Of a stretch of 21,670 bases of DNA, positions 1 through 20,401 are shown piece by piece. The notes below the pieces were generated by a model. That model was not told the DNA's origin. It was given only the letters and a program-made list of their open reading frames with translations, and did not search any database. The DNA lies in IMG/VR virus record IMGVR_UViG_3300021792_000023, positions 1-21,670 of that record; one strand, written 5' to 3'. Made by a program: the position numbers and the translations under genes. Position 1 is the stretch's first letter, and the number at the start of each line of letters is the position of its first letter. The stretch comes from a virus.

Positions 1-2360
1 CTTTCAATATTCTATCGACTTCTTCTGATGGCAAAGCACACCCATCAAAAGTTCCACTAAAACTTACACACTTCATTCCAGAGAATATACCTTCATTAAA
101 GGATGATAAAGAGCTACACCCATTAAAAGCATTTGACATATTAATAACCAATCTAATGTCAATCTCTTCAACCTTAACTACACTTGTGCAACCTTCCCAT
201 GTATTTGATAAAGTTTTAACTTTCAACAAAACTGTATCTTGATCCTTGATTGATGTTAGCGATGTGCAGTCTTTCCACGTTCCGTTCAAATGTTCTAATT
301 TTTCGGTGTTGTTCAAAACTGGCAAACTTGTTAAGGAAGAACACCCTTCCCAAGTATACATCAATCTATTTATATGTTTGAGATCAACTTCTGGTGTGGT
401 TACTAAACTCTCGCATCCTTTCCATGTTCTCTCTAATGACGACACACCTCTAGTGTTAATCGGTGGCATACTGGTAAGTGATTTACAAGAGTTCCATGTA
501 TAATCCATACTAGTCACATTATCAGTATTTATTGTAGGGAATGAACTCAAATGAGAACAATTATCCCATGCGAAATCCATATCCACCACATTTTCTGTGT
601 TTAAGTCTGGCATACTAGTTAAACTAACACAACCACTCCATGCCCTACTTAAAGTTTTTACATTACCAGTATCTAAATCTGAAGGAAATTTTATTAAGTT
701 GGAACAACTATACCATGTGCTATCCATACTGGTAACGCTACTAGTGTTTAACACATCTGGCATTGCTGTTATACCTCTACAATCTTGCCAAGTTTTTTCT
801 AAAGATCGAACATTACCAGTATCTAAAGTAGAAGGAAAACCTACTAGTGCTTTACAAGAATCCCAAGTCCCTCTCATATTTTCTACACTACTTGTATCCA
901 TATAATCCATACCAGTAACTTGATTACATCCTATGAAGGTATTCTCCATATTGATGACGTTCCCACCATTTTTGAGTTCTGGGAGTGCGGATAAACTAGA
1001 ACAACCCCAGAACATACCTTCTGTGGTTATGGCACTCGATAGATCCAATTCATTAGGAACTGAGGTTAAGTTACCACACAAATACCAAGTTTTATAAAAA
1101 TCAACAACATTACCAGTATCTAAAGTATTTGGCATTGTGGTTAATTTCCTACAATTAGACCACGTTTCATTCATACTAGTAACATTGCTAGTATTCAAAG
1201 TTGATGGAAAGTCAACCAATACCGAACACATACGCCATGTTTTCTCCATGTCAATAACGCTTGCAGTTTCTACATATGGCATTTTTTCAAGGTTAATACA
1301 ACCATTCCATGTTCTATACATACTTTTAACAAGACCAGTTGAACTTAATGTTGATGGCATTACGGTTAATCTTCCACAACCATCCCATGTTTTAATCATA
1401 GTTTCACATCTTGGTAAATTTAAAGTGAAAGGCATTTTACGCAATCTTCCACAACCACACCATGTCATATCTAAAGATTTAGTCGAATTTGTATTAAGTG
1501 CTGGTAGACCCATTAGATTCACACAGTCATTCCATGTTCTTTCCATAGTTTCGACATTTCTAAAATCCATAACCGAAGGCATATTTACTATTTCTAGACA
1601 ACCATCCCACGTTTCTTCCATATTCATGACATTAAATGTATCTAATACATCTGGAAATTTACTTACTTTAGAGCATCCTTTGAATGCCCTAGCCATAGTA
1701 AGAACACTATGTGTGTTTTTCAGATCTGGTATTGCCGTTAAAGATTCACATCCGTTCCAAGTCTCGTATAAATGAATTGCGTTGTTACATTCCAATTCTC
1801 TTGGAAACTGCACTAAGTTGGTGCATCCATTCCATGTCTGCCAAAGACTTTGGACATTACCAGTCTCTAATTCTATTGGCATAGCTGTTATATTACTACA
1901 TCCGTTCCACGTTCCTTCCATTAAAGTTACATTACTAGTATCCAATACTGCTGGAAAGGCAGTTAAAGACCGACATCCATTCCACGCATGGCTCATGTAT
2001 CTTAGATTTCTTGTATCGAGTGCTTCTGGTATCTGAACTAATTCGCCACAGTTCAAACACATTTCTCGCATATCTATTACATTTTTTGTATCCAATACTA
2101 ATGGGATTTCTTTTAATTTGTAACAATTTCTCCATGTAGCAAATAGATCAACACATTTAGACACATTTAATACATCTGGAACATTTTCCAATTCATAACA
2201 CCCATCCCATGTTCTCATTAATTCTGTTAAGTTAGTAGTATCTAATGTTTTTGGGAATTTTTTAAGTGAGTGGCAATAAGCCCACGCCAAATTAAAATCT
2301 TTCACATTTGATGTGTCTATATATGGCATTGCGGTCAAACCAGATCCATTCCAAGTGCCA
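1..2360 (-). repeat. About 32 tandem ~75-nt protein-coding repeats (LRR units)
   Basis: The minus strand shows a 72-78 nt period, each unit encoding one 24-26 residue LRR with an invariant-looking Cys and a nearly invariant Trp three residues before it. DNA identity between units is low, so the period is held by protein selection rather than recent slippage. Two units lack the standard Cys or Trp (the first, with WNGSG, and one with MCLNC near 2060). Confidence 0.85.
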
Positions 2361-2785
2361 TAGATACTTTTCATCTTACTTATATCAACCCCTTCTTCTG
2401 GTAAGGTCTTTAATTTTCTCATATACCTATTAACCCATTTGACACTTAATGAGTCATAATTAACATAACCACTCCAATCTAAAATTTCTATCACGTAGAT
2501 ATTAAAATAATTAAGATCATGATAGAAGTATCCATGTTTTGCCATTATTTTAATAGTATACACACCAGTAGTGGCGTATGTATGAGTTGTTCCGCTATCT
2601 CCTTTTCTATTAAATTTATCTCTTGTCCCATCACCCCAATATACCAGACCATTGTAGTTTGTGTTATCAAATAATGGTAAACGAATTGTAAGGTTAGTTG
2701 GATCAGTTATTTCTATAATAACTTCAAGTCTGTGTGATCTTCGTTGGCGTGAAAAGAAACCAGATTGTGTTGTTAAACCATGCAT
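1..2785 (-). CDS. Giant PKD + BspA/DUF285 leucine-rich-repeat protein, probable virion adhesin or fibre (partial, C-terminus outside window)
   Basis: The frame is open from an ATG at 2785 down to base 1, giving 928 residues without a stop; the end lies outside the window. Residues 30-100 look like a PKD-type beta domain (VYWGDGT near 48-54, THTYATTGVYTI near 67-78). From about residue 143 to the edge run about 32 repeats of 24-26 residues with the pattern TWxGCxxLxxMPxxLDTxNVxxM. This is the DUF285/BspA-like LRR family, but most repeats carry Trp where bacterial members have Phe (MFxGC). The last readable residues (TFDGCALPSEEVDRIL) resemble the usual end of such repeat domains. In known phages and bacteria these proteins are surface or adhesive; a tail-fibre or capsid-decoration role is inference. 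The start is supported by a late-type box (TGTAATTA, 2791-2798) at the fixed 5-nt distance seen for other virion genes. No signal peptide is visible. Confidence 0.85.
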   Translation of the reverse strand, partial: MHGLTTQSGFFSRQRRSHRLEVIIEITDPTNLTIRLPLFDNTNYNGLVYWGDGTRDKFNRKGDSGTTHTYATTGVYTIKIMAKHGYFYHDLNYFNIYVIEILDWSGYVNYDSLSVKWVNRYMRKLKTLPEEGVDISKMKSIYGTWNGSGLTAMPYIDTSNVKDFNLAWAYCHSLKKFPKTLDTTNLTELMRTWDGCYELENVPDVLNVSKCVDLFATWRNCYKLKEIPLVLDTKNVIDMREMCLNCGELVQIPEALDTRNLRYMSHAWNGCRSLTAFPAVLDTSNVTLMEGTWNGCSNITAMPIELETGNVQSLWQTWNGCTNLVQFPRELECNNAIHLYETWNGCESLTAIPDLKNTHSVLTMARAFKGCSKVSKFPDVLDTFNVMNMEETWDGCLEIVNMPSVMDFRNVETMERTWNDCVNLMGLPALNTNSTKSLDMTWCGCGRLRKMPFTLNLPRCETMIKTWDGCGRLTVMPSTLSSTGLVKSMYRTWNGCINLEKMPYVETASVIDMEKTWRMCSVLVDFPSTLNTSNVTSMNETWSNCRKLTTMPNTLDTGNVVDFYKTWYLCGNLTSVPNELDLSSAITTEGMFWGCSSLSALPELKNGGNVINMENTFIGCNQVTGMDYMDTSSVENMRGTWDSCKALVGFPSTLDTGNVRSLEKTWQDCRGITAMPDVLNTSSVTSMDSTWYSCSNLIKFPSDLDTGNVKTLSRAWSGCVSLTSMPDLNTENVVDMDFAWDNCSHLSSFPTINTDNVTSMDYTWNSCKSLTSMPPINTRGVSSLERTWKGCESLVTTPEVDLKHINRLMYTWEGCSSLTSLPVLNNTEKLEHLNGTWKDCTSLTSIKDQDTVLLKVKTLSNTWEGCTSVVKVEEIDIRLVINMSNAFNGCSSLSSFNEGIFSGMKCVSFSGTFDGCALPSEEVDRILK

Positions 2786-2901: not shown

Positions 2902-3363
2902 TCAACCACCATACACAACAATGGTAACATCAAATTTATCATCCAATACTTCTTTAATAATGCCTTCAATTCGTCCCCAGTCGCCTCCAGCCAGCCCAGC
3001 ACCAATCATTGGTAATCCGATTCGACATTTATCAAACTCGTCTCTTACACCCACTAGAGCTTGTTTTAAGGCATCATATTCAAATACATCACCACCCATA
3101 CTAAATCCGAATTGTGTATAAGCATTGATTACTGTAAATGTTCCCCCCACAGAATTTTTAATCTCTGCTTTTGTGTAAGAACCCAATTTGTTTTTATCAC
3201 CGAGTTCTGTTTCTTTATCTGCTTCATAAACATCATACCATTTATCGGCAATTGATCTGGCGATACCACCACCCATTGTGCAAAAGCAATTACACCCATG
3301 AATAATAATATCAAAATTTCCTTCGTCTGCTAACTTGATTAAGTCTCCTTTTATTGTTTTCAT
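2902..3363 (-). CDS. Macro-domain protein (ADP-ribose-1''-phosphate phosphatase / ADP-ribosyl hydrolase family)
   Basis: This 153-aa protein is essentially a lone macro domain. The visible signatures are the ADP-ribose-binding segments IIIHGCNCFCTMGGGIA (residues ~20-36) and PMIGAGLAGGDWGRIE (~118-133), with GTFTVINAYTQ between them. The family binds ADP-ribose and removes ADP-ribose groups or the 1''-phosphate of Appr-1''-p in the cytoplasm. The gene starts 7 nt after the metallophosphoesterase stop and is the last gene of that operon. In phages, macro proteins are linked to tRNA-splicing by-products, ADP-ribosylation reversal, or NAD+ metabolism. With NAMPT- and Prs-like genes in the same window, handling of free ADP-ribose is attractive, but that is inference. 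Confidence 0.9.
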   Translation of the reverse strand: MKTIKGDLIKLADEGNFDIIIHGCNCFCTMGGGIARSIADKWYDVYEADKETELGDKNKLGSYTKAEIKNSVGGTFTVINAYTQFGFSMGGDVFEYDALKQALVGVRDEFDKCRIGLPMIGAGLAGGDWGRIEGIIKEVLDDKFDVTIVVYGG

Positions 3364-5870: not shown

Positions 5871-6188
5871 TTATTTATATTTATAGTTAAAAGTTTCGAT
5901 ATTTGCTCTGAGCCATTCCATCATATCTTTATAAGATGTAGCTCTTTCTGTTACATCTTCCACAATATCATAATAGGGTTCTGGTAGGATTCTGGTTGAC
6001 AAATCTCCATTGACTAAATCTAAAATAATATCATCTTTAGAATCATCATACCAGATAGCATATCGAGCTACCCCATCTGAGTATATGTATTTTTCCCCAT
6101 TCTGTTTAATGTCAAAAGACCCACCTATTAACCTTATAAAGAATTTAAACAATTCCTTGGTTCTGTTACCTTGATTATAACTATCCAT
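5871..6188 (-). CDS. Hypothetical protein, 105 aa, paralogue of the 128-aa downstream gene
   Basis: This is a small soluble protein with no recognised motif. It has an N-terminal helix (ELFKFFIRLIGGSFDIKQ), a beta segment (RYAIWYDDSKDDIILDLV, ~42-59) and a C-terminal helix (YKDMMEWLRANIETF). It is shorter than its paralogue because it lacks the ~15 residue N-terminal insert. The start is supported by the late box CATAATTA (6194-6201) at the fixed 5-nt distance. The terminator of the upstream early gene (6211-6250) lies directly behind that box, so the pair forms its own transcription unit. Confidence 0.72.
   Translation of the reverse strand: MDSYNQGNRTKELFKFFIRLIGGSFDIKQNGEKYIYSDGVARYAIWYDDSKDDIILDLVNGDLSTRILPEPYYDIVEDVTERATSYKDMMEWLRANIETFNYKYK
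5872..5879 (-). promoter_or_regulatory. Late-type promoter box TATAAATA
   Basis: This is an exact match to the T4 late consensus, ending 5 nt before the ATG at 5866. It overlaps the stop codon region of the upstream gene. It links the YATAATTA boxes of this window to the T4 late promoter class. Confidence 0.55.
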
Positions 6189-10467: not shown

Positions 10468-11358
10468 TTATTGACCAAACAGTTTATTTGTTTTGGATTT
10501 CTCTGCCCATACCGCCAACGCAGTTGGAACTTTTGCCTCTTCACCGCTTACTCTTCGTGACTCCGTGATCACTTGTGGTTGGCGGTCAACATTTACAGCA
10601 GAACTCTTCTCTATGATTGGAGTAGAGTTGTGGGATTTAATAAAGAGTTGTCTAACATAATCGAAGTTACGCTTTGCATAATCGAATGACTTCCCTTTGA
10701 AACTTTCAACGATGAACTTTTGCTCAAGAACTGGTAGATTTTTGGTTTTTTCTCTGAGATATTCTTTAGTTTTAAGCAATTCAAGTTCTTTAGCTTGTTC
10801 TCTGATAATCTTGTCTGATTTCTCCATAGACTTTTTAATATCTTCGGTAACGACACGATCAAGAGTAACGAGTTTGCTAATTTTATTAAGGAGTTCTGTG
10901 CTGTGGTCGTGTTTTGCAGACTCAGCAACAACTTCTGTAGGGATGTGTTGTTCAAGGAAGGTGTCTAGGTATTTACTAACAGCAATAACCATAGCTTCTG
11001 TTTGCTTCTCCACTTCCTCATTAAGAAGTTTTTCGTATTTCTCTTTAATAAGAAGAACTTTTTTAGCACGATCTTCATCAACAAGGTCGAATGCTTCTTT
11101 AGTCATACGAGCGTGTTCGGAATCGAGTTTTTCCTCAACTGCTTTACGCTCTGACTTTAATTTGTTTTCGTATTTTTCAACAACTTGTTGAAGCATTTCG
11201 GTATGCTCTTTATCTTGCGTTTCCAGAGCAATTCCAACACGTTCCTCAACTAACTCATCAAGTTTGGCGTTAAATGCTTCCGTGATTTGCTGTTGGGCAG
11301 ATTCACTTAGCACGCCTTCTTGTTCACCAAATAATCCTTTTAGAATATCCTTATTCAT
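10468..11358 (-). CDS. 22: Prohead core scaffolding protein, T4 gp22-like
   Basis: This 296-aa protein is highly charged and almost entirely helical, with long coiled-coil stretches (about residues 25-125 and 165-210), and sits directly upstream of gp23, as in T4. It contains several (I/L)xE sites of the type cut by the gp21 protease (for example LSE, ITE and LEE). The C-terminus (residues ~225-296: FDYAKRNFDYVRQLF ... VPTALAVWAEKSKTNKLFGQ) resembles that of T4 gp22 (phage scaffold family). It builds the internal core on which gp23 assembles and is then degraded. It starts 5 nt after a CATAATTA box. Confidence 0.88.
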   Translation of the reverse strand: MNKDILKGLFGEQEGVLSESAQQQITEAFNAKLDELVEERVGIALETQDKEHTEMLQQVVEKYENKLKSERKAVEEKLDSEHARMTKEAFDLVDEDRAKKVLLIKEKYEKLLNEEVEKQTEAMVIAVSKYLDTFLEQHIPTEVVAESAKHDHSTELLNKISKLVTLDRVVTEDIKKSMEKSDKIIREQAKELELLKTKEYLREKTKNLPVLEQKFIVESFKGKSFDYAKRNFDYVRQLFIKSHNSTPIIEKSSAVNVDRQPQVITESRRVSGEEAKVPTALAVWAEKSKTNKLFGQ

Positions 11359-12507: not shown

Positions 12508-12909
12508 ATGATTCGTGTTAAATTGGTTTCGGAAATATACAATTCTTATGTAAATTCGATAAGAGACTTTTTAATAGATAGTTATAATATCGATAAGGAG
12601 GGGAATGTGCTATTATCCAATAAGGAGTTTAGGGATATTTCTAGAGAAACCGCAAAGATGATAATAGACGAGATTCCAAAAAATACACTCATAGTAAATG
12701 ATATCAGATGGGAGCATATTATTGAAAATTCTTTTGATATAGATTCCCACATCGATGTGTTGCGAGGTTATATTTCAAAACGAAAATTCTATGTATCAAA
12801 ATACTTCCCAAAGGATAGTATACCAGAAGTTATTTTCGACTTAAATACAGCGGATATTGATGGGGAATTGAAAGAAGCAATCTTTCTTACCAAAGTCCAT
12901 CTGGTTTAA
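12508..12909 (+). CDS. Hypothetical protein, 133 aa
   Basis: Not recognised. The start is MIRVKLVSEIYNSYVNSIRDFL and the end is DGELKEAIFLTKVHLV. It is predicted mostly helical in the N-terminal two thirds (SNKEFRDISRETAKMIIDEI), with a C-terminal KFYVSKYFPKDSIPEVIFDL segment; no membrane span or metal-binding motif is seen. The start lies 7 nt after a TATAAT, so a leaderless transcript is predicted. Its last 4 nt overlap the stop of the convergent gp14-like gene. The position among neck genes hints at a virion or assembly role, but this is weak. Confidence 0.68.
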   Translation: MIRVKLVSEIYNSYVNSIRDFLIDSYNIDKEGNVLLSNKEFRDISRETAKMIIDEIPKNTLIVNDIRWEHIIENSFDIDSHIDVLRGYISKRKFYVSKYFPKDSIPEVIFDLNTADIDGELKEAIFLTKVHLV

Positions 12910-13643
12910 TAATCATCCTCATCCATATAGAATCCACCATACACTTCGCTGTGTTTTGTCTGTAAGTCATTGTCTGCCATTTCGTCTAGATTCCGACCAG
13001 TATCATTTGTTTCACTCTTACCTTCTATTGGTTTGAATGTGTCATCATCAATAACACCAGCGACAGCAGAATCCATGAGTGTCTTACCACCCACATCTTT
13101 TGGTTCACCCTCTTGCCAGTTGAAGTCGCTACGTTGACCAGAAATAAACCAACGACCAGATACATCAAACAAACTACCATCACCTTGGGATACTACTTCA
13201 AACCCAACACGAACGAATCCGCTGGGTCTTTCACATAGAAGATCCTTGATTTCAAACTTATCTCCAGCTTGTGGAGTTCTAGTTCCAAATACAGATGCCC
13301 ATGTTTCGTAAGTGATTTGAATGTCAATATCGTTTGTTGTTTCGATACCAAATTCAGATAACAAACTGGTATCGGAGTTTATTTTAATAAGTCCTTTAAT
13401 AAGATAAGGTCCGATATATGGTGTGTTTTGATCTCCGTATATTGGATGTGCTAATTTTGGGTCAAAATCTTGTTTGTAATATAATAGATCTAGTCCATAT
13501 AATTTTTCAGCAAGTATCGATTGCTCGTGCAATGTCTTTCTAACACCTTCTTCAAAATTACAACCAATCAAAGGTTGGACTATGCTTGAATCTCTATCTC
13601 CGAGGTTTAGTGGTTTCTGTGATGATGAAGGATTAAATGCCAT
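12906..13643 (-). CDS. 14: Probable neck protein, T4 gp14-like
   Basis: This 245-aa protein is close to T4 gp14 (256 aa). Shared layout: an early SILAEKLYGLDLLYYKQDFD segment (~42-61) comparable to T4 [23 protein letters not shown], then a short loop with IYGD (T4 IFGED). After that comes EFGIETTNDIDIQITYETW, like T4 NFGMQVQDEVTLSI, then PQAGDKFEIKD like PKEGDLIYFP, and FDVSGRWFISGQRSDFNW matching the KFIYSGE region. An acidic, flexible tail follows. gp14 joins gp13 in the neck that connects head and tail. The gp15-like gene is its divergent neighbour, which supports the call, as gp13-14-15 cluster in T4. Similarity is judged by eye and is distant. Confidence 0.58.
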   Translation of the reverse strand: MAFNPSSSQKPLNLGDRDSSIVQPLIGCNFEEGVRKTLHEQSILAEKLYGLDLLYYKQDFDPKLAHPIYGDQNTPYIGPYLIKGLIKINSDTSLLSEFGIETTNDIDIQITYETWASVFGTRTPQAGDKFEIKDLLCERPSGFVRVGFEVVSQGDGSLFDVSGRWFISGQRSDFNWQEGEPKDVGGKTLMDSAVAGVIDDDTFKPIEGKSETNDTGRNLDEMADNDLQTKHSEVYGGFYMDEDDY

Positions 13644-14767: not shown

Positions 14768-14803
14768 TAAAAAAGACCACCCATTTCTAGGTGGTCTTGA
14801 ATT
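14768..14803. terminator. Bidirectional terminator between convergent gp15 and the 63-aa gene
   Basis: A perfect 9-bp stem AAGACCACC (14773-14781) / GGTGGTCTT (14790-14798) with an 8-nt loop. On the minus strand it is followed by TTTTTTATT; on the plus strand by GAATTATTATTTT. The minus-strand side ends the prs-NAMPT-63-aa unit. Confidence 0.88.
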
Positions 14804-14804
14804 A

Positions 14805-14996
14805 TTATTTTAGATAATCTTCTGCTTTCTGAATTACCTTTTCATATTTTTTTATTACTGGGCATTCCTCCGACCAATCATGTCTTTCGTTTTTATTGTG
14901 ATGTAGATTATCACAATCTAATCGATTTGCATAAATGAGCCTTAGAAGATCGGAAATGATAATTTTAGCTTTTAGGGTTTCTCGTTCGTCTTTCAT
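14805..14996 (-). CDS. Hypothetical protein, 63 aa
   Basis: This small charged helical protein (MKDERETLKAKIIISDLLRL ... KYEKVIQKAEDYLK) has a Cys/His-containing middle (CDNLHHNKNERHDWSEECP) that could bind a metal, although the C-H-H-H-C spacing matches no family I know. It overlaps the end of the NAMPT-like gene by 32 nt in another frame and ends just before the terminator, so it is the last gene of that transcript. The overlap is long, and initiation further in cannot be excluded. Confidence 0.5.
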   Translation of the reverse strand: MKDERETLKAKIIISDLLRLIYANRLDCDNLHHNKNERHDWSEECPVIKKYEKVIQKAEDYLK

Positions 14997-16527
14997 TTTT
15001 TCTAATATTTTCTCTCACATCATCAAGTGTAGTTAAGTTTGTAAATTCTCCTTCAACATATACTGTTTTGAGTTCATTGTCTTTACTATTAACTTCCTCC
15101 CAAGAACTTTCATCTTTAGCATAGTATTCACCATTCTCGTCCTTATACACAACAATCAAACCTTTTGCAGATTTTTTAAGACCATCATCGGTTTTTGGAT
15201 TTTTGAAAATTGCTCTTCCTTCTCCATTGATTTCGACATAGGTTGCTTTAATAGCCATCCCGTGTGTATCTCTGGTGACAATACAGTCGGGAGAAACAGC
15301 ACCTTGATACGTGAATGAACCAATACCAAGAACGATATTACAAGAAGCGAAACCTTTTTGTTTAAGACGATATAGGATTTCTTCTGCACGAGCAATTGTG
15401 ATAGAATCTCCATAGATAGCACCAATATGTTCATCTAGAATTTTATATCCTTGTTCATTTTCAGTTCCACCAAAGATTTCATAGAGGCATTGGATCATAC
15501 CCTTCTTCTCTAGTTCGGTAAGTTTGTCCCATTCACTTCGTGGCATTTGTTTTCTATCATTTCCGTCATATCCACAGATGATGTGAACTGGATCTCCACT
15601 ATCTGGACGAACCACAGTCTTGCCATCACGTTTCATAATAATATCTTTAAGACGTGCAATGATACCCCCATCTGGATTTACTACTTGCCAGAAATCCCAT
15701 GTGTCAGATACAATAGACACGATACCAGTTGGGTGGACTTCAGTAATCATCCTTTTGAATGTATCATATTCATTCATGTCACCACCAGCACACATACAAG
15801 AGTGTTCGCTGGCTGGGACACTAGCACCAACCATTTCCTTCTCACAATCTGCATTATAGTAATACTCCATACCAACAATTGCTGGGATTGTATCTGTTCC
15901 ACAGAAAGATGTAAGGTGTGCCATACCAGACATCATTGCGGATTGGCTACCAAACATCCCACGATAAGAGAAATCATGACCTTGGAATTTACAAGATCCA
16001 ATTTCATCTGGACAAGTTTCATTTGCATAATATTCAAAGATTCCTCTGTAAATATTTGCAGTAGTCGCAGAAGTAATAAATCCCCAAGTATTGGCACTAA
16101 ATTCAGTTTCGATGAAATTGGTCAACCAATAAAACTCTGGTTTTGTATTCCAGAATTGAACCATAGGAACTCGCAATGGGACACTAGCACCTTCGGGTAA
16201 TGCAGTAAATTCCAATGGCAGATACCCCAAATCATGTAGTGCTTCGATATGTTCTACTTCGGTATCACCACCGAGAGATGCATCTAAGATTCTCTTGAAT
16301 GATTTTACTACTTCTTCTTTTGGTTTCTCAAAGAAATTGTATTGGAAATCATCATGCAACATCATAATAGATGCTTGTGTTCCAAAATGGATAACAGACT
16401 TCAAACCTTCTACTCGTGTCCCACGAGCGGTCAAGTTTGAAACAACAACTTCAGTTCCTTCTGGATACTGTTTGCGGTGACTTTGTTTATAAAAGTCAGT
16501 TTTTAATACTGGGTTAATGTTCAACAT
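14965..16527 (-). CDS. nadV: Nicotinamide phosphoribosyltransferase-like enzyme (NadV/NAMPT family; candidate Namat)
   Basis: This 520-aa protein is a full-length NAMPT-family member (human enzyme about 491 aa). Visible family motifs are DFYKQSHRKQYP (~11-22), QGHDFSYRGM (~182-191), SFCGTDT (~207-213, with the nicotinamide-site Asp212), VPASEHSC (~238-244, with the catalytic His242), VSDTWDFW (~273-280), VVRPDSGDP (~305-313), AIYGDSIT (~370-377), LGIGSF (~400-405) and RDTHGMAIKAT (~419-429). The classical reaction makes NMN from nicotinamide and PRPP. In the phage NARP1 pathway a homologue instead joins nicotinamide to ADP-ribose pyrophosphate, giving NAD+ directly. The Prs-like gene directly upstream fits either scheme. 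It has its own sigma70 promoter overlapping the end of prs, with the ATG 6 nt after the -10, so a leaderless mRNA is likely. Confidence 0.93.
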   Translation of the reverse strand: MLNINPVLKTDFYKQSHRKQYPEGTEVVVSNLTARGTRVEGLKSVIHFGTQASIMMLHDDFQYNFFEKPKEEVVKSFKRILDASLGGDTEVEHIEALHDLGYLPLEFTALPEGASVPLRVPMVQFWNTKPEFYWLTNFIETEFSANTWGFITSATTANIYRGIFEYYANETCPDEIGSCKFQGHDFSYRGMFGSQSAMMSGMAHLTSFCGTDTIPAIVGMEYYYNADCEKEMVGASVPASEHSCMCAGGDMNEYDTFKRMITEVHPTGIVSIVSDTWDFWQVVNPDGGIIARLKDIIMKRDGKTVVRPDSGDPVHIICGYDGNDRKQMPRSEWDKLTELEKKGMIQCLYEIFGGTENEQGYKILDEHIGAIYGDSITIARAEEILYRLKQKGFASCNIVLGIGSFTYQGAVSPDCIVTRDTHGMAIKATYVEINGEGRAIFKNPKTDDGLKKSAKGLIVVYKDENGEYYAKDESSWEEVNSKDNELKTVYVEGEFTNLTTLDDVRENIRKNERRTRNPKS

Positions 16528-16533
16528 AATTTT

Positions 16534-16562
16534 ATTATACTTTAGTTTTTTGTAGAAATCAA
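16534..16562 (-). promoter_or_regulatory. Sigma70-type promoter of the NAMPT-like gene
   Basis: -35 TTGATT (16557-16562), 17-nt spacer, -10 TATAAT (16534-16539). The ATG comes 6 nt after the -10, so transcription and translation are predicted to start almost together. It lies immediately after the Prs-like stop. Confidence 0.7.
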
Positions 16563-16565
16563 GTT

Positions 16566-17498
16566 TTAACAGAAATAAATATTATCATCGACTTCTGTAT
16601 CGATATTTAATGAGGTTGCTGTGTCTAGAGTGGTAACAACCATTCCATATTTCTCAGACACATTTTTTAATCCTTCAACACAATCTGCGTGTGTAACCAT
16701 AAGACAAAGGTTTTCTTTTGTAGCACCACACTCCATAAGGATATCTGCGAGTCCAAGAAATGTTCCTCCCATCCCACAGACATCATCAACCACAATAACA
16801 AAGTCATCCTTATCAATATTACATTCACTACAACCAAAACTAATAATCTTTCCAGTAGCTGGATCTCTGTGTTTCTCACCTTGCACAAATTCTGTAATAA
16901 TTCTTGTGTCACTTTCATAATGCTCCGTGTAAGAATCAAGAATTGCATTTACATTTTGTAATGCTTCCCAACTACGTTTTGATGCACCAGCATCTGGAGC
17001 AACAATAAAGATTCTCTTTCCTTGATATGTCTCGTAGTCAAATACACCAAGAAATAGATCAGCAAATCGGTCTTTAACGATACAGTTCTTAATCAATGAC
17101 GGCATAACATCAGAATGTGGTGTATCGGTAGTAACCGATTCAAAACCCATACCATTAATAATATTAGCAACAACATATGCGGAAAGCGGTTGACCTTCAG
17201 AACACACTCGGTCTTGTCTACTACCCATGATGTAGGGAGCATACAAATGTATTGTAGGTTGTTTTCTAGTTCCTCTACGTTTTAGAGCATCTACAACCAA
17301 AGCAAGATCAATCAAATCATTCGCATTTTTAATACTATATTTGATTGTATAAGTTACTTTTAAATCCGCATAATAAACGTCAAACTCTTCAAGAACTGGC
17401 ATACGCTCACCAGATGGAAATGTGACAAATTTAACTTCCTCTGTGAATCCTACACGATCTTCTCCTAATCCGAAAATACTTTCTCTATATATTAACAT
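16566..17498 (-). CDS. prs: Ribose-phosphate pyrophosphokinase-like enzyme (Prs family; candidate ADP-ribose pyrophosphate synthetase)
   Basis: This 310-aa protein has PRPP-synthetase family motifs: LYAPYIMGSRQDR (~85-97, the ATP-binding RQD), PLSAYVVANIINGMGF (~104-119), TPHSDVMPS (~126-134, catalytic His128), IVAPDAGASKR (~165-175, catalytic Lys/Arg) and VVDDVCGMGGT (~236-246). Normal Prs transfers pyrophosphate from ATP to ribose-5-phosphate. Here the 5'-phosphate loop, DTGGT in E. coli and DTAGT in B. subtilis, reads GMGGT, so the Asp and the first Thr are replaced. That could fit a larger substrate such as ADP-ribose (NARP1 Adps), but is not proof. I choose the ATG at 17498; a GTG at 17519 would place the start codon upstream of the -10 box. 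The NAMPT-like gene follows directly. Confidence 0.9.
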   Translation of the reverse strand: MLIYRESIFGLGEDRVGFTEEVKFVTFPSGERMPVLEEFDVYYADLKVTYTIKYSIKNANDLIDLALVVDALKRRGTRKQPTIHLYAPYIMGSRQDRVCSEGQPLSAYVVANIINGMGFESVTTDTPHSDVMPSLIKNCIVKDRFADLFLGVFDYETYQGKRIFIVAPDAGASKRSWEALQNVNAILDSYTEHYESDTRIITEFVQGEKHRDPATGKIISFGCSECNIDKDDFVIVVDDVCGMGGTFLGLADILMECGATKENLCLMVTHADCVEGLKNVSEKYGMVVTTLDTATSLNIDTEVDDNIYFC

Positions 17499-17507
17499 AA
17501 CGTCTGT

Positions 17508-17535
17508 ATTATAACACACGTTGTGAGATATGCAA
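17508..17535 (-). promoter_or_regulatory. Sigma70-type promoter of the Prs-like gene
   Basis: -35 TTGCAT (17530-17535), 16-nt spacer, -10 TATAAT (17508-17513), ATG 9 nt downstream. The -35 overlaps the T run of the gp21 terminator. Confidence 0.7.
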
Positions 17536-17564
17536 AAAAATGCCTTAAAAAATTAAGACATTTT
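17533..17564 (-). terminator. Rho-independent terminator after gp21
   Basis: AAAATGTCTTAA pairs with TTAAGGCATTTT (12 bp with one G-U pair, 4-nt loop; 17537-17564) and is followed on the minus strand by a T run. It separates the late gp21 transcript from the prs promoter. Confidence 0.7.
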
Positions 17565-17589
17565 TAATGTATGATGAATACGAATACTA

Positions 17590-18264
17590 TTAGTGTATTT
17601 TGATTTCGTCCAAGAAATTCACAATCGCATTAACAATATATTTTTCTTTGTCATGCCGTGGTAGAGTAGCCAAAGACTCTTCAAGGTTGTCTAATGGGCG
17701 TGCAATGAAGTTTCCGTCTTCACCCAAAATCCATTCTCTTTGTTCGATAAGTGGATCAACTACGGCAGAGGAAACGCTTGGGTCTTGCACAGAGTCGAAA
17801 CAAATAAGACGCAGACCAGAAACTACATTAGCACCATTCTTCTCACTAACTTGTCCTAATGCACGGCTAGATTTACCAATCATTCCGCCACCAGCAATTA
17901 ATGCTTTTTGAATACGCCCCATAGGTGTATCGAGAACAACAGCTTTTCCGTATACAGTTCCGTCATTTTCCATCCTAAGACTAACAGTTCTGTCACATGA
18001 TCTCTCCAAATCTACATCTGGTGTTGATGGGTGATTTAATTCATTATATGCACGTTTTGTTGATACAAATTCTTCATTATATCTTTTAATATCAGCAAGC
18101 ATTTCATTTGGGTCATAAACACGACCATTCTTATTCTTTTGACCCGCTTGACCAAAAATTCCCTCAAGATACAATTGTTTCGGGGCATCTTTATTGGCTT
18201 GTTCTTCATAAGTTTCCAAAGCGGTATTATTCCCACCAATAAGCAATTTAAAAGTATTAGACAT
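17590..18264 (-). CDS. 21: Prohead core protease, T4 gp21-like
   Basis: This 224-aa protein is close to T4 gp21 (212 aa). Conserved features: KQLYLEGIFGQAGQKNKNGRVYD (~29-51), then AYNELNHPSTPDVD (~72-85), holding the catalytic-type His of ELNHP, then VYGKAVVLDTPMGR (~104-117). GMIGKSSRALGQV (~127-139) has the nucleophile-type Ser, and GLRLICFDSVQDPSV (~149-163) follows. The family is a herpesvirus-like serine protease that cuts scaffold, capsid and internal proteins at (I/L)xE and then itself. gp22, gp23 and perhaps the 186-aa protein are its expected substrates in this window. It is divergent from the portal gene, whereas in T4 genes 20, 21, 22 and 23 run the same way. Confidence 0.9.
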   Translation of the reverse strand: MSNTFKLLIGGNNTALETYEEQANKDAPKQLYLEGIFGQAGQKNKNGRVYDPNEMLADIKRYNEEFVSTKRAYNELNHPSTPDVDLERSCDRTVSLRMENDGTVYGKAVVLDTPMGRIQKALIAGGGMIGKSSRALGQVSEKNGANVVSGLRLICFDSVQDPSVSSAVVDPLIEQREWILGEDGNFIARPLDNLEESLATLPRHDKEKYIVNAIVNFLDEIKIH

Positions 18265-18269
18265 ATTAT

Positions 18270-18277
18270 TAATTATG
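18270..18277 (-). promoter_or_regulatory. Late-type promoter box CATAATTA for gp21
   Basis: The box ends 5 nt before the ATG at 18264. No matching -35. Confidence 0.6.
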
Positions 18278-18327
18278 TTTAACTATAATTTTTTTTATGT
18301 TTAAATTAGCTTTTACTCGGTTAAGCC

Positions 18328-18335
18328 TATAATTA
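18328..18335 (+). promoter_or_regulatory. Late-type promoter box TATAATTA for gp20
   Basis: The box ends 5 nt before the ATG at 18341. No clear -35. Confidence 0.6.
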
Positions 18336-18340
18336 TCAAC

Positions 18341-20401
18341 ATGGCGAATATGTTAAACCCATTATCATGGTTCAAGAGTAGCGGTAGTGTTCCTAATGGA
18401 ACTCACCAAGAGGAAGACATTTTAAGAGCAATCAGAAAAGCATCTGCTATTGATCGAGTTCATGATTCTTATTCAAGAAAAACTGACAAATTGGCAGTAT
18501 CAACAATACCAGCACCTTGGGAGGAAGATAAGGAAAGGGGTGGTATCATGGCTCAATGGGCTAATACTGGATTTAGAGATTACCTTAAATTCAACATGAA
18601 CGAGAATAAATTCTCTCGTATCGTGGATTTAAGAACACTTTCCAAAGAAGAAAAAATAGAATCTTGTCTTCATGAAATTGCTATTTCGTGTCTGGCTTCA
18701 CACGATGGTGGTAAAACCATAAAAGTAAAATTAGAAGGAGATTATTCTGATGAAGTTAAAGAAATTATCAACGAAGAACTTGAACTAGTTGTTGATTATT
18801 TTAAATTTGATGAACATGGGCAAAAATATTTTAAAGAGTGGTTAATTTGCGGAGAGGTAGCATTTGAAAATGTATTTTCTATTGAACGACCAGAACTTGG
18901 TATCCTTGACGTTAAATCGATTCCACCAGAGAATATAGATCCAATCTACAGAAACCAATACAATGAAGAAGTAGAGGCGTATATTTTAAGAAAACCATTA
19001 AACCAACTCGATAACCCAAATAATAGGTTCACCCAACAAAATAGAAGAACACAACCAACATTGGCATTTGAAACTATTCCTATGGCTGTAAGTCAAGTTA
19101 CATATTGTAATAGTGGCGAGTGGGATGAATCGATGCATATGGTAATCCCTTACATCACTAAAGGACAAGATGCACAGAAGAAACTTTCTTTGATCGAAGA
19201 TTCGATTGTTATCAATGCTATGGTCAATGCACCAGAAAGATTGTTATGGAACATTCCTACTGGAGATATGGATGCATCATCTCAGAATACATTCATGCGT
19301 AATATCATCAACTCACACAAGAGACGTAAAGGAACTGATGGTAAAGGAAATATCCTTGATAAATACGACCCAATCAGTATTACCGAAGATATTTATATCC
19401 CAGTTAGTAATGATGGTAAATCAGCAACAGTAACACGTCTTGCTGGTAGCACCGCATTTAGTGGTGGATTTAATGGTATGTTGGATTACTTCCACCAAAA
19501 AGTATTTGAGGATATGCACGTTCCGATTGCACGTTTAAATCCAGATGCATCTCAATCAGATGGTCAAACAATCACCATGCAAGAGTTGGCATTTGCAGAA
19601 CGGATTATTGCAATTCAAAAACGCATGGCTAGTGCTATCAAGAAAACACTAATAACACACCTCAAACTAAAAGGTATCAAGTTGCATCGTGAAAGTTGTG
19701 ATGCTGATATTATATTGGAAAGTAGATCCAAAGACCAAGAAATTAGTAGAGAACATATAACCGACGAGCAAAGATTCCAATCACACTTAAAATTGGTTGA
19801 GTCTGGTTATTATAAAGACACATTAAGAAATAAACTTTTAACAGAGGATAACGAAAAATGTGACAAACTTCTTTATGAACTTGGGTTGAGTTATTGGGAT
19901 CAATATGAATTGCGTGAAAGGGACATCTTTGTCGAGTTTTCACTACCAACCAGTTTCATGGCATTGCGTGATCAACAACAGTTTGACTTGAAGTGGAACA
20001 ACTTCAATACAATGGCATCTACTGGATTTTTCTCAGTATACCTACTAGCAAAACAATATCTAGAAATGTCTGACTCCGAAATCCTTCATCACATCGAATG
20101 GAAGAAGAAAGAAGCAGAGAAGAATTGGGAAATCGCACAAATTGAAAGTGAAGGTCCGGACTTTAGAGAAAATGCTATGGCTGATGCTGGTCTTGATGCT
20201 GGAGGTGGCGACTTCGGTGGTATGGATGACTTTGGTGGTGATATGGGCGATATGGGTGATTTCGATGGAGGAGATGTTGGTGGTGGGGATGATGGTGTTG
20301 GTGATACCGAATCAGCATTACCACCTATGGACACCGAACCAGATACTGGTGGAGCAGAACCAGATACTGGTGGTGACGAAGGTGGTATAACCGAGGCTTA
20401 A
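18341..20401 (+). CDS. 20: Portal vertex protein, T4 gp20-like
   Basis: This 686-aa protein is longer than T4 gp20 (524 aa). The portal core includes EIAISCLAS (~107-115), YFKEWLICGEVAFENVF (~162-178), DVKSIPPENIDPIYR (~189-203), MVNAPERLLWNIPTGDM (~294-310), YDPISITEDIYIPVSNDGKSATVTRLAG (~345-372) and MHVPIARLNPD (~393-403). The extra length is mostly a C-terminal tail from about residue 610, made of Gly, Asp, Met and short EPDTGG repeats, with no counterpart in T4. gp20 forms the 12-subunit ring through which DNA is packaged and on which the prohead starts. Its stop overlaps the stop of the convergent helicase gene by 4 nt. Confidence 0.93.
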   Translation: MANMLNPLSWFKSSGSVPNGTHQEEDILRAIRKASAIDRVHDSYSRKTDKLAVSTIPAPWEEDKERGGIMAQWANTGFRDYLKFNMNENKFSRIVDLRTLSKEEKIESCLHEIAISCLASHDGGKTIKVKLEGDYSDEVKEIINEELELVVDYFKFDEHGQKYFKEWLICGEVAFENVFSIERPELGILDVKSIPPENIDPIYRNQYNEEVEAYILRKPLNQLDNPNNRFTQQNRRTQPTLAFETIPMAVSQVTYCNSGEWDESMHMVIPYITKGQDAQKKLSLIEDSIVINAMVNAPERLLWNIPTGDMDASSQNTFMRNIINSHKRRKGTDGKGNILDKYDPISITEDIYIPVSNDGKSATVTRLAGSTAFSGGFNGMLDYFHQKVFEDMHVPIARLNPDASQSDGQTITMQELAFAERIIAIQKRMASAIKKTLITHLKLKGIKLHRESCDADIILESRSKDQEISREHITDEQRFQSHLKLVESGYYKDTLRNKLLTEDNEKCDKLLYELGLSYWDQYELRERDIFVEFSLPTSFMALRDQQQFDLKWNNFNTMASTGFFSVYLLAKQYLEMSDSEILHHIEWKKKEAEKNWEIAQIESEGPDFRENAMADAGLDAGGGDFGGMDDFGGDMGDMGDFDGGDVGGGDDGVGDTESALPPMDTEPDTGGAEPDTGGDEGGITEA
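20168..20398 (+). repeat. Low-complexity Gly/Asp-rich tail coding region of the portal gene
   Basis: Runs of GGTGGTGAT-like codons encode a strongly acidic tail (about 75 residues) with repeated GGDxGG/DMGDM units and two EPDTGG units. It is compositionally unlike the rest of the gene. Confidence 0.8.

Follow-up and report, generated by a model that had tools for sequence, protein, structure and literature searches.

Two neighbouring genes in the virus record IMGVR_UViG_3300021792_000023, analysed here over 21.7 kb (the window), encode a Prs-like and a NAMPT-like protein and raise the question of how this phage would make NAD+: by canonical salvage through PRPP and NMN, or by a NARP1-type pathway that would rebuild NAD+ from ADP-ribose. 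An earlier note on this DNA had named the latter as a candidate, which is supported by two-model scores and trees, by residues of the active site and the clamp, and by the pairing of the genes. We consider the pair to be, with high probability, a NARP1 module, and call it a variant because position 7 of the clamp consensus lacks its aromatic residue. This reading is based on homology and on the conservation of residues in the catalytic centre and the clamp, and further on the pairing of the genes, on sister phages that lack the cassette and on a late motif that marks the neighbouring genes but not the pair. We infer substrate choice, timing and anti-defence role, the last by analogy with characterised NARP1 modules.

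In such a module, Adps would use ATP to pyrophosphorylate ADP-ribose, released by NADase defence effectors, to ADPR-PP, and Namat would join ADPR-PP and nicotinamide to give NAD+ in one step. NAD+ starvation of the cell would be averted and phage growth could continue. Placed between two structural genes that converge on it and equipped with promoter-like sites of its own, the module would form a self-contained unit, its expression perhaps independent of, and earlier than, that of its late-gene neighbours.

A two-gene cassette among T4-like structural genes

The cassette comprises the following features.

14768..17589, no strand: whole cassette (~2.8 kb) of the window; in the sister phages L123 and L124, the two flanking genes adjoin without it
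17534..17560, minus: weak terminator-like hairpin with a T-tract, following the protease gene at the upstream cassette border; read from the sequence, below the scan's G-C threshold
17508..17536, minus: promoter-like site of the Adps-like gene, TTTGCA-17-TATAAT, 9 nt before the ATG
16566..17498, minus: Adps-like gene (Prs family, 310 aa), predicted to convert ADP-ribose and ATP to ADPR-pyrophosphate
16534..16562, minus: promoter-like site of the Namat-like gene, TTGATT-17-TATAAT, 6 nt before the ATG
14965..16527, minus: Namat-like gene (NAMPT family, 520 aa), predicted to convert ADPR-PP and nicotinamide to NAD+
14805..14996, minus: small ORF (63 aa), function unassigned, overlapping the 3′ end of the Namat-like gene
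14773..14798, scored on both strands: terminator-like hairpin between the cassette and the sheath-stabiliser gene

The Prs-like gene comes first, directly upstream of the NAMPT-like gene on the same strand, with a gap of 38 nt, so that Adps and Namat candidates are adjacent as in NARP1. The NAMPT-like protein matched PHROG 448 ('nicotinamide phosphoribosyl transferase', E 9.5e-191) and the Pfam families NAPRTase (1.8e-38) and NAMPT_N (4.7e-7), and the Prs-like protein matched PHROG 619 (E 1.3e-57), bearing out that full-length members of both families are neighbours here. The ATG at 17498 was the best start of the Prs-like gene; a longer GTG start at 17519 was ruled out because it lies upstream of the TATAAT (−10) box. 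No ORF for an NMN adenylyltransferase, the partner of NAMPT in NARP2, was found next to the pair within the window. With PADLOC, the Namat-like protein had no match and the Adps-like protein no more than a marginal one (17 bits), and NCBIfam names were uninformative, with Namat, NAMPT and HdNadV-type proteins all termed nicotinate phosphoribosyltransferase.

Judged by its genes, the window's source is a deep-branching T4-like phage. The flanking genes encode T4-like head and tail proteins according to PHROGs (T4-type prohead protease, portal, major capsid protein, sheath stabiliser), in agreement with the earlier placement of the pair inside a late gene block; the major capsid protein shared only ~31% identity with cyanophage relatives, and the portal ~25% with T4-like portals. 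At the window's edge, a long open frame at 1-2785 (minus) runs off the end and probably encodes a repeat protein, since the ORFs opposite it look repetitive.

The sister phages L123 and L124, whose capsid proteins are 70-74% identical to that of the window, have the same gene block in the same order. Their protease and sheath-stabiliser genes are convergent and overlap at their ends by 4 bp, whereas the window holds 2.8 kb at this position. GC and GC3 of the cassette matched those of its neighbours, and this compositional test gave no sign of recent import. As the next relative, L125, has a different gene order at the site, the difference may reflect gain in the window or loss in the sisters alike. 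Both sisters possess NAMPT-type genes located elsewhere. That of L123 is full length with a GGGLL-type motif and is followed by polysaccharide pyruvyl transferase and GT29 sialyltransferase-like genes (14830-17693); the same region contains an ORF that resembles, with weak support, a cytidylyltransferase. The L124 protein (17951-19177) is shorter and diverged (408 aa), no NAPRTase domain was detected in it with Pfam, and it is possibly inactive.

A [CT]ATAATTA box precedes the ATG at a distance of a few bases, often five, in 10/23 ORFs, as compared to 6/919 other ATGs (Fisher p 6e-14, an optimistic value given that the box was first noticed in these same genes). Its sites in the window are upstream of 5871-6188(−), 6825(+), 10468-11358(−), 11436(+), 12906-13643(−), 13679(+), 17590-18264(−) and 18341(+), and it recurs in L123 and L124. 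If the box is placed as in T4 late promoters (−13 to −6), the first transcribed base would fall at the ATG, which suggests leaderless late mRNAs in this lineage. Neither cassette gene has this late-promoter motif; before both stands TATAAT, preceded at 17 nt by a −35-like hexamer, although the Namat-like gene's site bears some resemblance to the late box. The claim that the two genes have their own sigma70-type promoters held for position, with sites properly placed before both ATGs, but not for enrichment: the whole region contains 28 sigma70-like matches versus 25.3 ± 5.1 in shuffles. This arrangement fits transcription of the cassette by a host-type polymerase, perhaps early, consensus matches not being proof, and the pair may constitute its own transcription unit within the late-gene block.

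Assignment of the two proteins

Comparison with characterised Adps and Namat versus Prs and NAMPT, the check proposed in the earlier note, favoured Adps and Namat for both proteins. Among solved structures, those closest to the Namat-like protein were SPbetaL1 Namat (9w5x/9w5w; 513 bits), followed by HdNadV (391) and human or other mammalian NAMPT (~196). Profile HMMs built without the window protein scored it at 682 bits (reference Namats), 717 bits (a wider Namat set) and 312 bits (NAMPT); SPbetaL1 Namat itself scored 329 bits against the NAMPT model. In a tree of 95 proteins, 90 Namat-type rows, the window among them, split from five NAMPTs with an SH-aLRT support of 100%. An AlphaFold2 model (pLDDT 90.8) superposed best on 9w5x/9w5w (rmsd 1.6-2.0 Å), with ~2 Å for HdNadV and ~3.2 Å for human NAMPT.

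The active site agrees with these scores. The catalytic nicotinamide/ribose centre is kept (F189, R192, D215, R306 and D308 of SPbetaL1 correspond to F186, R189, D212, R307 and D309 of the window), the catalytic His242 is invariant, and all nicotinamide and ribose contacts are retained, with Ser at position 362 as in most Namats. Of 20 NAD+-contact residues reported for Namat, 19 are either identical or match other Namats, among them Arg38 and Phe405, the clamp pair that carries most weight. The GGGLL-type motif of NAMPT, which canonical salvage would lead one to expect, is absent from the window protein, and GSFTYQ stands there instead. By these comparisons, the NAMPT-like protein is assigned to the Namat clade rather than the NAMPT clade.

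The Prs-like protein scored 201 bits against an HMM of reference Adps proteins and 221 bits against one of all Adps proteins, both made without it, and 48 bits against a Prs HMM, in which Prs was represented by three sequences only. With the Prs model TIGR01251, it reached 69 bits and SPbetaL1 Adps 106, both under the cut-off of 113. These two-model scores were used beside the Adps tree because long branches distort the placement of Prs in that tree (L007). The window branch is itself long (1.82), with nearest relatives only ~33% identical, and grouped with the Adps partners of those Namats that carry an insertion in the clamp described below (support 98/82); since its neighbours include these partners, the two genes appear to have travelled together. 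Those relatives were reached through their Namat neighbours, a short-pattern scan of viral contigs with the window Adps having returned none, and a search for a solved Adps structure found none.

The catalytic residues H128, D169, K209/R211 and D238/D239 are conserved, and PHSD, an HS[DE] motif, takes the place of the DLHA-type motif of Prs. The altered Prs loop that had been pointed out earlier was confirmed:

16758..16787, minus: loop DDVCGMGGTF (DDMIDTGGTL in E. coli Prs)

In place of the DTGGT-type ribose-5-phosphate loop that a canonical Prs would display, it reads CGMGGTF, and its Phe247 is invariant in the aligned Adps proteins. From these sequence features, the Prs-like protein is classed as an Adps rather than a Prs.

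The selectivity clamp and its insertion

That the sequence cannot tell the two chemistries apart, as the earlier note held, is too pessimistic, for a published selectivity clamp discriminates between them. According to the Namat structure paper (PMC12774641), specificity for ADPR-PP comes from a clamp made of the loop residue Arg40 and a helix motif, GSX-Phi-X-Phi-X-Phi-TRD, whose aromatics at positions 3 and 7 contact adenine. In SPbetaL1 Namat, the double mutation R40A/F392G is reported there to cause a ~17-fold loss of ADPR-PP activity with NMN activity retained, and single clamp mutants a loss of only 1.3-1.7-fold; with PRPP the enzyme also forms NMN, about half as fast as its human counterpart. 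The corresponding elements of the window Namat are as follows.

16414..16416, minus: codon of Arg38, aligned with SPbetaL1 Arg40 (clamp loop, adenine stacking; PMC12774641)
15268..15321, minus: clamp helix motif GSFTYQGAVSPDCIVTRD, residues 403-420
15283..15303, minus: 7-residue insertion GAVSPDC within the clamp motif, in place of the second aromatic (SPbetaL1 Tyr396)

The motif reads GSFTYQ-GAVSPDC-IVTRD. Arg38, which provides the loop stacking residue (Arg, Lys or Tyr), Phe405, the aromatic at position 3, and Thr418, Arg419 and Asp420 are kept. The aromatic at position 7 and the fixed spacing to TRD are lost, Ile416 occupies the aligned position, and one adenine-contact aromatic is gone. 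Reference proteins without Tyr or Phe at position 7 but with intact spacing exist (Met in May; His in Whirlwind and DirkDirk). The insertion-free motif occurs in 79 other Namat-type rows and the insertion in eight other viral Namats; the nine insertion-bearing proteins form one clade (97% SH-aLRT), and the consensus of the relatives, GSFTYQGA[VI]xxxAI[VI]TRD, suggests function rather than decay. Given that the damaging change in SPbetaL1 was the double mutation, ADPR-PP activity of the window Namat is expected despite the insertion, if not proven.

Clade membership alone is no proof of ADPR-PP use, because Haemophilus ducreyi NadV (PDB 9ke8, crystallised with NMN), described as NMN-forming, is placed within the Namat clade, next to SPbetaL1 and a staphylococcal phage, and is 43% identical to the window Namat. 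Unlike the window protein, HdNadV has neither aromatic in its clamp motif (GAQTYQRNTRD), with Gln and Arg at positions 3 and 7, and neither an Adps nor a Prs gene was found on its plasmid, pNAD1. An Adps ORF was present in 77/81 Namat loci flanked by 2.5 kb or more to either side, and the NAMPT and HdNadV loci examined yielded none. A substrate call would need clade, clamp residues and an Adps partner together, and the window has both of the latter, with a reservation at position 7. At four loci (L028, L029, L048, L094), the Namat gene reads as two ORFs apart from each other, suggestive of interruption by an intron or insertion.

Alternative readings and related modules

Were the pair to serve canonical salvage, the Prs-like protein would make PRPP from ribose-5-phosphate, the NAMPT-like protein would make NMN, and a host NMNAT would complete NAD+. 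Both proteins do belong to the Prs and NAMPT superfamilies, HdNadV exemplifies a Namat-clade protein able to work in this way, and the window's clamp motif is interrupted; yet the Adps-type loop and HS[DE] motif, the low Prs score, the retained Arg38 and Phe405 and the neighbouring Adps gene render this very improbable. Hardly more probable is that the insertion loosens the clamp such that PRPP and ADPR-PP are used alike, giving both NMN and NAD+. SPbetaL1 Namat is already active on PRPP, and the insertion costs an adenine contact in a loop modelled at a pLDDT of only ~70-74. However, given the mild effect of single clamp mutations, loss of position 7 alone need not shift preference, and conservation of the insertion argues for a function.

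NARP1 chemistry could also supply NAD+ or recycle ADP-ribose during infection without countering any defence, as active NARP1 on bacterial chromosomes, without a defence context known for it, and the NAMPT-type genes of the sisters, as if NAD+ supply were itself useful, would allow. Since the phage NARP1 modules characterised in two reports counter NADase defences (PMC12774641, PMC13232231), we hold this to be unlikely, if less so than the two preceding readings.

Starting again from a variant NARP1 module, we tentatively propose, at somewhat less than even confidence, a NARP1 subtype in which a different, longer lid built by the insertion recognises the adenine of ADPR-PP, with its own co-evolved Adps subtype, and in which related T4-like phages alternate between this module and a NAMPT-type salvage gene elsewhere. 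NARP1 itself is known; the clamp-insertion variant is absent from the portion of the literature examined. With this locus, the range of NARP1 would reach into a deep-branching T4-like lineage, and a natural alteration of the motif to which substrate specificity is attributed would make the clamp model testable beyond point mutants. Sisters with NAMPT-type genes and no cassette would allow two NAD+ strategies to be compared in related genomes.

The closest characterised system is NARP1 of Bacillus phage SPbetaL1 (Adps WIT26982.1, Namat WIT26983.1; PDB 9w5w, 9w5x), with the same two families in the same order. Its Namat is ~50% identical to that of the window and shares the catalytic centre, the Arg40 and Phe392 equivalents and TRD, but has Tyr396 and no insertion; the window Adps, only 33% identical, has an extra stretch before the K-x-R-D motif and resides in a T4-like genome. 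Six viral contigs with NARP1-type pairs (L043, L044, L046, L047, L054, L055) carry the same clamp insertion, with Namats 54-59% identical to the window's and Adps partners in the same or a neighbouring clade. Unlike the window, G007 and G008 (the records of L046 and L048) have a distant capsid protein only (~50%), and the G007 Namat gene lies ~23 kb from the capsid gene. Phages Moby and CcrSwift (NARP2-like) have the NAMPT fold and phage NAD+ salvage in common with the window, but a GGG motif, no clamp, no Adps and an adjacent, NMNAT-like cytidyltransferase.

A macro-domain protein in the window had been cited in favour of ADP-ribose handling.

2902-3363, minus: macro-domain protein (His22, Asn25, Thr29, Gly32)

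The protein itself was confirmed, and its residues follow the pattern published for the macro protein found close to NARP1 in Pseudomonas phage Adele; DarG-like scores were weak. By its description (PMC12846349), Adele has Adps, Namat and a macro-domain protein of this H-N-T-G pattern downstream of NARP1, unlike the window, where the gene lies ~11.6 kb from the pair. As evidence for ADP-ribose handling it was dropped as weak: macro-domain genes are widespread in phages (2480/50,697 records) with no specific link to the pair, and none was found in four insertion-clade relatives searched.

Two further loci came to light. In L088 (1928-4339), a single 803-aa ORF matches both Adps and Namat profiles, an apparent natural fusion. 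A Persicobacter plasmid (L150, 2163-4476) carries an Adps and Namat pair with the intact clamp GSFTYQYNTRD, and the window Namat is slightly closer to its Namat (52%) than to that of SPbetaL1 (50%).
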